DNA of 37,869 bases. It comes from a virus. Positions 8,783 to 36,667 of the stretch are shown in pieces (position 1 is the stretch's first letter; each line of letters opens with the position of its first letter). The stretch covers positions 1-37,869 of the IMG/VR virus record IMGVR_UViG_3300049846_000621; one strand, given 5' to 3'. The translations under genes and the position numbers were made by a program. The notes under the pieces are model-generated. The model was not told where the DNA came from. It did not search any database and was given only the letters and a program-made list of their open reading frames with translations.

Positions 8783-10135
8783 ATGATATTAACATCAGCA
8801 TCGGATATAATCAGAGTAGTTTACTCAGCAGCAACCGCAGTAGACTTAGACTTTCAGGCAGGTTGGGCTGACCAAACAACCACAGCTTTCACCCCAGGCA
8901 GAACTAATACCAACGGTACTACGGCTGGCGGCGCAACAGTAACTATAGTTGCAAGCCCTGGTGCTTCTACTCAGCGACAAGTTAAGACTATTACTATTTA
9001 TAACGCTCAATCTACCTATTCAAACTCCATAACTGTCCAACATTTTGATGGCACTACTTCATTAGATGTATGGAAAGGTACTCTGCAACCAAACGAGAGT
9101 GTGCAATATGATGGTACTAAGTGGAATAGGGTTAATTCAGCAGGTACATTAGTTACTCAAGCTGGAAGTGCAGCCTCAGATATACAAGTGTTCTCGACTC
9201 CTGGTGCTGGAACTTGGACTAAGCCTACTTCATTTACCCCAACTTGGGTACAAGTAATAATGTGGGGTGGAGGAGGTGGCGGTGGAGCTGGTGCTTCACT
9301 CGCAACAGCTACTGTTGCACCTGGTGGTGGAGGAGGTGGTGGTGGAGCGTATAACACAAGAATATTTAGAGCTTCTGACTTATCTTCAACTGAGAGCCTA
9401 AACGTAGGTGTTGGTGGTACAGCTGGCGCTCCAGGTGCAGCTGGTGCTGCTGGAGGTTCTGGAGGAGCTGGAGGTAACTCTACTTTTGGCACTACAACCC
9501 TGCTCGCTGCTTATGGTGGTGGCGGTGGTAAGGGTGGAGATATTTCTGCACTAGCTGGAGGCGGTGGAGGCGGTGGCGGTACTGGAGGTGCTGGTGGGAC
9601 AGGTACGGCAGCTGTCGGTGCTGGTGGATTGCCTGGAACTTCAAACGTCACAGGTGTTACTGCTGGTACTGGTTCACAAGGTCCTATAACTGTTGTCACT
9701 ACTCACAATGCTGAACTTGGTGGTGGTGGTGGTGGTGGGCATACTAACGTACCTGCTAACGCTGTAGGCGGTGGTTCACTATGGGGTGGTGCTGGTGGAG
9801 GCTGTGGCGGTGGGCACAACGTAACCCCTGCTAACGTTGCAGCTACGGCTGGAGGCGCTTCGAATACTTATACCGCAGGAACTGGTGGTGCTGCTGGAAC
9901 TTCTGGAGCTGCTCCGACTGCTGGTTCAGCTGGTACTAATGGTAACTCTAGTAGAGGTGGAGCAGGTGGAGGCGGTGGTGGTACTACTGTTACTGCATCT
10001 GTATCTGGGTCAGCAGGTGGTGACGGTGGTACTCACGGCGGCGGCGGAGGTGGTGGCGGTACTGGTATGAACCCTGGACTTGGTGGCGCTGGCGGAGCTG
10101 GCGGTAAAGGAACTATTTACGTAATAACTTGGTAA
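8783..10135 (+). CDS. Glycine-rich adhesin / receptor-binding protein
   Basis: 450 aa, AGGAG before ATG 8783. Residues 1-150 form an ordinary beta domain. From about residue 150 (TWTKPTSFTPTWVQVIMWG) to the end it is built from long poly-Gly runs broken by short Ala/Thr/Ser loops, closing with GGAGGKGTIYVITW. This matches the glycine-rich phage adhesin fold in which polyglycine type II helices stack and the variable loops contact the receptor (as in the S16 gp38 adhesin). Likely the host-range determinant. High GC in this stretch is caused by Gly codons. Confidence 0.78.
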   Translation: MILTSASDIIRVVYSAATAVDLDFQAGWADQTTTAFTPGRTNTNGTTAGGATVTIVASPGASTQRQVKTITIYNAQSTYSNSITVQHFDGTTSLDVWKGTLQPNESVQYDGTKWNRVNSAGTLVTQAGSAASDIQVFSTPGAGTWTKPTSFTPTWVQVIMWGGGGGGGAGASLATATVAPGGGGGGGGAYNTRIFRASDLSSTESLNVGVGGTAGAPGAAGAAGGSGGAGGNSTFGTTTLLAAYGGGGGKGGDISALAGGGGGGGGTGGAGGTGTAAVGAGGLPGTSNVTGVTAGTGSQGPITVVTTHNAELGGGGGGGHTNVPANAVGGGSLWGGAGGGCGGGHNVTPANVAATAGGASNTYTAGTGGAAGTSGAAPTAGSAGTNGNSSRGGAGGGGGGTTVTASVSGSAGGDGGTHGGGGGGGGTGMNPGLGGAGGAGGKGTIYVITW

Positions 10136-30570: not shown

Positions 30571-30599
30571 ATTATAGCAATAAAGCTAATGCTTGTCAA
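30571..30599 (-). promoter_or_regulatory. Consensus promoter for membrane-CHAP operon
   Basis: On the minus strand TTGACA (30594-30599), 17 bp, then TGC-TATAAT (-10 at 30571-30576). Both hexamers are perfect consensus with an extended -10. The spacer has a variant of the shared AGCTT motif. It drives the gene starting at 30540. Confidence 0.85.
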
Positions 30600-35645: not shown

Positions 35646-35670
35646 TCTTGTCCCCTTATTTAATGATTCT

Positions 35671-35699
35671 AGTGTAGCGTAAGCTTAGTCCAAAGTCAA
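35671..35699 (-). promoter_or_regulatory. Promoter with TAAGCTTA element for the replication operon
   Basis: On the minus strand TTGACT (35694-35699), 17 bp, then TACACT (-10 at 35671-35676). TAAGCTTA lies at the same distance from the -10 as in the promoters at 32026 and 37220. First gene starts at 35645. Confidence 0.78.
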
Positions 35700-35707
35700 G
35701 CTTAATC

Positions 35708-35736
35708 TTGACAGAATTATCCACAAGCAGTATGTT
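35708..35736 (+). promoter_or_regulatory. Forward promoter with DnaA box in the spacer
   Basis: TTGACA (35708-35713), 17 bp, TATGTT (35731-35736). The spacer contains a perfect TTATCCACA. A short transcript would run from about 35743 to the terminator at 35784-35807. It is back-to-back with the replication operon promoter. Confidence 0.6.
35717..35725 (+). promoter_or_regulatory. Perfect DnaA box
   Basis: TTATCCACA is the consensus 9-mer of bacterial DnaA. Only one perfect copy was noticed; a one-mismatch copy (TGTGGACAA) lies at 29633-29641. It lies between the -35 and -10 of a forward promoter, so DnaA could act on transcription or mark an origin. Confidence 0.6.
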
Positions 35737-35742
35737 CTGTGT

Positions 35743-35807
35743 GGTAGCAATACCCAAACATCGTCCCCACCACGTGTTTGTATAGCCCTCTCTTTAGGGG
35801 GCTTTTT
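35743..35807 (+). ncRNA. Predicted small RNA 1
   Basis: About 65 nt between the forward promoter (35708-35736) and an intrinsic terminator. It has no open frame. The region includes a short 5' pairing option (GGTA-GCAA-TACC across its start) and the terminator hairpin at its end. Start position is estimated from the -10. No RNA family recognised. Confidence 0.45.
35784..35807 (+). terminator. Intrinsic terminator
   Basis: AGCCCTC (35784-35790), loop TCTTTA, GGGGGCT (35797-35803), then TTTT. One pair is G-U in plus-strand RNA but a mismatch in the other, so it works in the plus direction. Confidence 0.8.
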
Positions 35808-35820
35808 AAATTAAAAGTGT

Positions 35821-35848
35821 TTGACAAATAATCATAGTTTGATATGTT
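35821..35848 (+). promoter_or_regulatory. Second forward promoter in the gene-free block
   Basis: TTGACA (35821-35826), 16 bp, TGA-TATGTT (-10 at 35843-35848, extended -10). Expected start near 35855. No gene with a ribosome site follows, so a non-coding transcript is likely. Confidence 0.6.
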
Positions 35849-35863
35849 TGTAGTAAGCTGTTT

Positions 35864-35930
35864 GTTTCGCAATGGACAGCCCACATAAAAGAAAGAACCC
35901 CTTTCGGGGCTCTCTTGTTCGTTTCGCAAT
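35864..35930. repeat. Direct repeat GTTTCGCAAT flanking a terminator hairpin
   Basis: Exact copies at 35864-35873 and 35921-35930, 57 bp apart, with one-mismatch similarity continuing to about 15 bp (TGTTTGTTTCGCAAT against TGTTCGTTTCGCAAT). The first copy would be near the 5' end of the forward transcript, the second at the 5' end of the reverse one. Confidence 0.75.
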
Positions 35931-35931
35931 T
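35887..35931 (-). ncRNA. Predicted small RNA 2 (reverse) with terminator
   Basis: About 45 nt from the promoter at 35938-35966. It begins with ATTGCGAAAC (35930-35921), unpaired, then a terminator: AGAGCCCC (35913-35906), tetraloop GAAA, GGGGTTCT (35901-35894), then TTCTTTT. The G-U pair in the stem shows that the hairpin is optimal on the minus strand. The layout of a short unpaired 5' seed plus terminator is typical of a trans-acting or antisense small RNA. It would also end transcripts from the early operon at 37220. Confidence 0.5.
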
Positions 35932-35937
35932 ACCTAT

Positions 35938-35966
35938 AACTTAGCAAATGGAATCTTTTATGTCAA
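35938..35966 (-). promoter_or_regulatory. Reverse promoter for small RNA 2
   Basis: On the minus strand TTGACA (35961-35966), 17 bp, TGC-TAAGTT (-10 at 35938-35943). The extended -10 matches the other minus-strand promoters but TAAGCTTA is absent. Confidence 0.6.
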
Positions 35967-35970
35967 GGGG

Positions 35971-36291
35971 AATATTCTTAGAGAGGTGCAACTCCTCAAA
36001 TTCACTCCCTTATCAACTTCTGACACAGGCATACTTGGTTGTGAACAGGACAGAGTGAAGAGAATATTTTCGGAACAACACTAGGGGATGTCCGACTGTG
36101 TACTTCGACAACGGGGAATAACACAGCTCTCTCTACTTCACCAGAATGGTCTGGGGGGTAGGGGGGGCTGTACCTTCTTCTTCCGAAGAATAAACATTTT
36201 TATAAAGATACTGAGCGTTAGCGAAGTCATCTAGTTCCCCCCTCGATTAGCGAGAGGGGGGTTAGGGGGGAGAGGGAAAAGAAAGAACTCT
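35971..36291. other. Gene-free block with consecutive stems and G-tracts
   Basis: No credible gene. Perfect pairings, in order: AATATTCT (35971-35978) with AGAATATT (36061-36068), enclosing GAGG/CCTC (35983/35994) and TTCACTC/GAGTGAA (36001-36007/36053-36059) with an inner CTG-CACA stem; TCGGA-CA/TG-TCCGA (36070-36077/36089-36095); CTGTGT/ACACAG (36096-36101/36121-36126). Farther right are TTCTTC/GAAGAA near 36177-36190, CCCCCC/GGGGGG (36237-36242/36256-36261) and G runs at 36153-36167 and 36256-36276. It could be a structured RNA on either strand, an origin, or both. Confidence 0.6.
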
Positions 36292-36450
36292 CTAAGAAGA
36301 ATAACTGTTTAGAATAAACAATAAAGCTTCTAAATCATTACTATGAATAGCTTCATTTATTTTAATTGTTAAGTCTATATCACTGTCCCCGATTGTTTCT
36401 AGTAACTCGTAAGCTCTCTCTAATAGGTCTGTATTACTCGACATCATCAT
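36292..36450 (-). CDS. Small helical hypothetical protein
   Basis: 52 aa from ATG 36450; ATGs at 36447 and 36444 are equally possible and an upstream ATG at 36486 lacks support. Repeating helices (NTDLLERAYELLETIGDSDI and NDLEALLFILNSYSS). It overlaps the previous gene by 17 bp. Last gene before the gene-free block. Function unknown. Confidence 0.5.
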   Translation of the reverse strand: MMMSSNTDLLERAYELLETIGDSDIDLTIKINEAIHSNDLEALLFILNSYSS

Positions 36451-36667
36451 ACCCAGAATATCCGTTAATAAAGTTATAGTAATCATTCACAATATCCCGA
36501 ACTTGTCCACCACAAGTAGCGCACACTCGACAGTCTTTCCAAGTTTTTAAGTTACAAGGTACCTGAGGATTCATAAAATCAGGTCCGCACTTACACTCAC
36601 CTAATCCATCTACCTTAACTGTCTCACTAAACACACTTGATATGTCGTACTCTACTGGTATCTTCAT
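36434..36667 (-). CDS. Six-cysteine zinc protein
   Basis: 77 aa. Cys at 25, 27, 38, 46, 49 and 52 (ECKCG, then CNLKTWKDCRVCATCGG) should bind one or two zinc ions. ATGA overlap with the gene before it. Early operon position suggests a regulator or host-directed protein, but no family is recognised. Confidence 0.6.
   Translation of the reverse strand: MKIPVEYDISSVFSETVKVDGLGECKCGPDFMNPQVPCNLKTWKDCRVCATCGGQVRDIVNDYYNFINGYSGYDDVE

Follow-up and report, generated by a model that had tools for sequence, protein, structure and literature searches.

What is the function of two promoter-like sites that face each other over one hairpin, each followed by a copy of the same short repeat, in a noncoding gap of an uncultured phage? 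The gap, 646 nt long (35646-36291), lies in the 37,869 bases of IMG/VR virus record IMGVR_UViG_3300049846_000621, the whole of which was analyzed and is hereafter called the window. Structural genes (terminase, portal, capsid, and tail) run rightward, and the gap is situated within a leftward gene block encoding a DnaB-like helicase, a NinG-like nuclease, a PD-(D/E)XK-like protein, and a CHAP-domain protein; the same block also holds the genome's only 12/12 consensus promoter with a TG, at 30571-30599 on the minus strand. The nearest named relative is MW202497.1 (Manatee Spring; 58.7% capsid protein identity), and further distant relatives of the phage are present in IMG/VR. A helicase search of genome contigs returned distant helicase relatives only (~27-33% identity) and indicated no host. 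The window contains no tRNA genes, and a cluster of eight was found in a related phage (L007:604-1417). A coding reading of the gap was rejected, since its 70-aa open reading frames (ORFs), at 35872-36084 (+) and 35717-35929 (-), lack coding signal. Rfam gave no match for the region at gathering score, all matches up to E 5 being spurious, and no meaningful DNA homologues of the region were found in phages and plasmids. The features discussed below are collected in Table 1.

Table 1. Features of the noncoding gap and its right border, in window coordinates; promoters, terminators, and RNAs are predictions.
Feature	Position	Strand	Description
Leftward promoter	35671..35699	-	TTGACT-17-TACACT; ahead of the operon of a 57-aa ORF and the PD-(D/E)XK gene; divergent from P1
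P1	35708..35736	+	sigma70-type, TTGACA-17-TATGTT
P1 small RNA	35743..35808	+	~66 nt; hairpin with GCAA tetraloop, middle hairpin, terminator at 35784-35803
P2	35821..35848	+	TTGACA-16-TATGTT, extended -10 TG
P2 RNA	35855..35915	+	5' 10-bp hairpin (35857-35880) with repeat copy 1, then shared hairpin; weak rightward stop
Repeat copy 1	35859..35873	+	TGTTTGTTTCGCAAT; within 5' hairpin of P2 RNA
P3 RNA	35882..35931	-	~47-50 nt; unpaired 5' tail and terminator hairpin
Shared hairpin	35892..35915	-	AGAGAGCCCCGAAAGGGGTTCTTT with T-rich tail; leftward intrinsic terminator; fold z -3.1
Repeat copy 2	35916..35930	+	TGTTCGTTTCGCAAT; on the minus strand, 5' tail of P3 RNA
P3	35938..35966	-	TTGACA-17-TAAGTT, extended -10 TG
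Insertion-like element	35975..36298		324 bp; 11-bp perfect terminal inverted repeats; 5-bp GAATA direct repeats (35970-35974, 36299-36303)
Upstream early ORF	36292..36486	-	64 aa; last codons within right end of element

Under promoter and terminator scoring that assumes E. coli-like signals, which may not be those of the host, the 646-nt gap contains three sites with a perfect -35 and an acceptable -10 (P1, P2, and P3), compared to 0.011 expected, and three such sites were obtained in 0 of 5,000 simulations. As the initial annotation had described, P2 and P3 point toward each other over a common hairpin, with their start sites ~76 bp apart and their -10 boxes 90 bp apart. The -10 of P3 is the weakest among the three (3/6 matches), and its -35 is perfect. 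All three are promoter-like sites from which transcription is predicted to start. The hairpin scores well as a terminator in the leftward direction (-16.3) and less well in the rightward direction (-9.6). The proximity to a DnaA box, likewise pointed out at the outset, was also borne out: TTATCCACA occupies 35717-35725 within the P1 spacer, ~140 bp from the repeat, and is the only such box at the locus.

The convergent promoters P2 and P3 probably give rise to two short RNAs that overlap. The predicted P3 RNA terminates at 35892, ahead of any ORF, and no plus-strand gene with coding signal was found downstream of P2, nor any gene with coding signal overlapping the P1, P2, or P3 RNAs. When RNA targets were sought among the phage translation starts, none was better than for shuffled RNA. 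The 5' tail of the P3 RNA is mostly unpaired in prediction, and the 5' hairpin of the P2 RNA was equaled in stability by 2.4% of shuffles. The P1 RNA (fold -21.7 kcal/mol, z -3.1) makes a clearer small-RNA gene than either the P2 or the P3 RNA.

Upstream of P3 lies an insertion-like element whose ends form the inverted repeat TTCTTAGAGAG/CTCTCTAAGAA. Terminal inverted repeats and a target duplication, the features of MITE-like elements, were both found at 35975-36298; GAATA stands on both sides of the element, a signature of insertion with target duplication. Nothing as strong as these ends together with the duplication arose in 300 simulated genomes (0/300), and no further copies were found when viral contigs were searched for the ends at their spacing. 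The element contains G-rich hairpins and, as a whole, folds strongly as plus-strand RNA (z -5.4, compared to z -3.5 for the minus strand); judging from this modeled folding, it could conceivably encode a structured RNA. When the element and one GAATA copy were removed in silico, the early ORF was intact, ending in ...LNSYSP*, with its stop codon TGA inside the -35 of P3 and the hairpin following after 47 nt, as is usual between a gene and the terminator that belongs to it. Because the empty site puts the stop codon in the -35 and the terminator 47 nt on, P3 looks like a promoter of the 3'-UTR type. In bacteria, small RNAs of the type I 3'-UTR class have their own promoter at the end of a gene and share that gene's terminator, and the reconstructed empty site has both: with the element discounted, P3 stands where the early gene ends and would use the terminator of that gene. 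The present arrangement differs from these RNAs in that the element now parts gene and terminator by ~380 nt.

The reading we favor, to which we give about an even chance of being right, is that of an early-gene terminator with an embedded promoter for a small RNA of the 3'-UTR type, which acts locally and is countered by small-RNA units running rightward. The stretch would thus be a compact control region, noncoding and set within the leftward block of early genes, in which the hairpin would serve as the leftward terminator of the early gene at 36292-36486 and would shield the early genes from the replication genes, which resume at 35699. P3, located between the end of the early gene and its terminator, would produce a 3'-UTR-type RNA of ~47 nt, while P1 and P2 would produce rightward small RNAs with no gene downstream. 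The P2 and P3 RNAs would be cis-antisense over the hairpin, and polymerases starting at each promoter would run at the other. We infer transcription and interference at P2 and P3, as well as any regulatory outcome, from this layout; the most likely effect would be local, with either RNA or promoter lowering its opposite through cis-antisense pairing and promoter interference.

Several results are in line with an early-gene terminator with an embedded promoter, i.e., the promoter cluster above chance, the leftward-strong terminator, the fit of the empty site, an RNA dimer that is predicted to form without the repeat (see below), and the lack of coding signal. In addition, distant relatives carry units of promoter, short RNA, and terminator in their noncoding regions. 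Three results count against it. The -10 of P3 matches at 3/6 positions only, helped by the TG and the perfect -35. The convergent promoter pair was found in none of the relatives examined, all of them distant (two further contigs, L169 and L170, with ~88% DNA identity over parts of the structural genes, together cover window positions 228-29176 only). Finally, a 14/15 repeat at the 5' ends of both RNAs, as seen in 0.2% of simulations, is left partly unexplained.

The two copies of this repeat, TGTTTGTTTCGCAAT and TGTTCGTTTCGCAAT, are identical at 14 of 15 positions, have a spacing of 57, and flank the hairpin. Their core, GTTTCGCAAT, occurs exactly twice in the genome, at 35864 and 35921, both on the plus strand. 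A comparable pair was present in 0.2% of Markov-simulated 646-nt regions, with 0.23 expected per whole window, and the only other such pairs at 15-100 bp spacing were in G-rich coding repeats near 9264-9884. In other viruses, a search for the repeat pair gave three database matches, all of them unrelated protein-coding repeats. A third, partial copy (TGTTTGTATAGC) is located at 35775. The initial annotation had placed the repeat near the 5' ends of both transcripts, and both copies do fall within the first 20 nt of the P2 and P3 transcripts. Such a position would also suit a DNA operator, through which a phage or host regulator acting downstream of both starts would control P2 and P3 together, and exact copies were found nowhere else in the genome, fitting an operator used at this locus only. 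However, the copies have the same DNA orientation and are therefore placed unlike relative to P2 and P3, the repeat has only weak palindromic symmetry, near matches in the rest of the genome are no more numerous than expected by chance (28 vs. 28.5), and a repressor-like gene was recognized in none of the proteins scanned. We regard an operator as possible but unlikely. In phage 186, convergent promoters form a lysogeny switch; a switch of that kind was rejected here, as no repressor or integrase was recognized among the proteins scanned.

The repeat had originally been read as part of an antisense switch, in which the 5' tail of the P3 RNA binds the 5' hairpin of the P2 RNA in trans by means of the repeat, on top of the pairing in the 3' overlap. 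This reading was borne out only in part. The pairing itself held up: the proposed 15 bp with one G-U was right, the T/C difference between the copies becoming U-G in the RNA duplex, and the P3 tail is predicted to pair with the P2 RNA via the repeat at -21.2 kcal/mol. The isolated P3 tail and P2 hairpin together reached -21.8 kcal/mol, compared to -9.1 kcal/mol for the hairpin alone, a gain of ~12.7 kcal/mol. The mostly unpaired P3 tail also speaks for such a switch, the wobble tolerance of the sole difference between the copies is a weak point in favor of pairing through the repeat, and the predicted energetics would permit a contact between loop and tail to initiate inhibition. What did not hold up is the role of the repeat in the full dimer. 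The P2 and P3 RNAs are perfectly complementary over 34-41 nt without the repeat, and the predicted heterodimer (-73.5 to -86.6 kcal/mol, a gain of 38.7-51.4 kcal/mol) pairs through this overlap instead, far more strongly, leaving the repeat pairing unused. Because the dimer uses the overlap and keeps the P2 repeat hairpin closed, the repeat would be at most an additional contact site; in these models it is not needed for P2/P3 pairing, but it may aid first contact. Moreover, copy 1 is mostly buried in the stem, with 4-5 nt in the loop, neither RNA carries a gene to be controlled or has a target above shuffles, and no relative keeps both repeats. A trans-pairing switch is, in our judgment, distinctly unlikely.

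We consider it just as improbable that P3 is unused, the hairpin being no more than an early operon terminator, P2 a rightward promoter that has been left over, and the repeat a duplication that either arose by chance or has decayed. The poor -10 of P3, the overlap of its -35 with the former stop codon, and the third partial copy of the repeat, which suggests drift of a short motif, all point in this direction, but P3 combines a perfect -35 with an extended -10 (17-bp spacing), only 0.011 strong sites would be expected in the region, and 15-nt matches with a single mismatch seldom occur. More doubtful still is a switch made up of the two RNAs alone, with no protein-coding target, in which the direct repeat would be a second trans-capable seed beside the terminator overlap, next to the DnaA box and the replication operon promoter.

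We compared the P2/P3 pair with known antisense systems. Copy-control antisense RNAs of plasmids (CopA/CopT, RNA I/RNA II) have a rep leader or primer RNA as their target. The P2/P3 RNAs are like them in being complementary and in having hairpins and an unpaired 5' tail, but both stop without reaching a gene: the P3 RNA ends before any, and P2 faces none. The analogy to copy control drawn in the initial annotation fails because its defining target, a replication leader or primer, is missing. The c4 RNA, which has short repeated complementary stretches, regulates an antirepressor gene carried on its own transcript. It is an antisense RNA of phage P1-type immunity (PMC12197685), and the P2/P3 pair shares with it the combination of phage antisense RNA and short repeated complementarity, but has no antirepressor gene on the transcript.

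SdsR and RyeA are mutually cis-encoded small RNAs of E. coli, and SdsR has trans targets, a toxin role, and measured expression (PMC6610125). Convergent promoters with overlapping complementary RNAs, the mark of a mutually cis-encoded pair, are likewise predicted here. Both pairs consist of noncoding RNAs from convergent promoters, complementary in their overlap, and are candidates for mutual repression and for promoter interference, which has been documented for convergent promoters (PMC6593788). Whereas SdsR expression has been measured, the P2/P3 RNAs are predicted here from sequence, and the second pairing site made by the repeat is a feature of P2/P3 that is absent from the excerpted descriptions of SdsR/RyeA in PMC6610125. 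In lambda, pO faces pR at the replication region, with documented interference (PMC3985674), and the OOP RNA belongs to that region (PMC3985674, PMC12197685). In both lambda and our phage, a small RNA promoter opposes early transcription near replication functions, here with a DnaA box. OOP, however, is antisense to the cII gene and lies near the ori lambda iterons, whereas at our locus only one DnaA box was found and none of the predicted P1, P2, and P3 RNAs overlaps a coding gene, which sets them apart from an origin-side RNA against an early regulator. Provided that both are made, the P2 and P3 RNAs would be a very compact phage case of mutually antisense small RNAs and would test direct repeats read from opposite strands as a general design for RNA-RNA switches. 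Should they not be made, the gap would still illustrate how small-RNA units, terminators, and an insertion element occupy one control region between early and replication genes.

Among the relatives, three carry a conserved noncoding RNA of ~128 nt (L005:42684-42808, L008:2041-2169, and L182:1486-1611), with a consensus-like promoter before it and a terminator at its end. It is characterized by UGCACUA..AGA.CC ... GGGACU.C, a compensatory stem, and a possible loop pseudoknot, and one helix has double changes at 5 of 8 pairs. A covariance model built from two of the three sequences recovered the third at E 2e-14, and none of them had an Rfam match; they are a candidate new phage RNA family. A fourth member may be present at L007:2368-2500 (13 bits). 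The P1 RNA is the best match in the window to the model of this RNA (R1), and the match is weak (9.5 bits, E 0.1-0.5), making membership of P1 in the family suggestive only. The DnaA box TTATCCACA is found by small-RNA units in three phages: inside P1 in the window (35717), upstream of the RNA promoter at L182:1425, and just after the RNA terminator at L008:2169. With the box next to the RNA in L182 and L008 and inside P1 in the window, phages of this group may habitually place small-RNA units close to a DnaA box. In two other relatives, a hairpin followed by a T-run lies just upstream of the PD-(D/E)XK gene and overlaps a likely promoter (L002:120-215 and L006:1-85), and these hairpins have the compensatory stems GGGAGUUAGG/CCUAACUCCC and GGGAGUAG/CUACUCCC.
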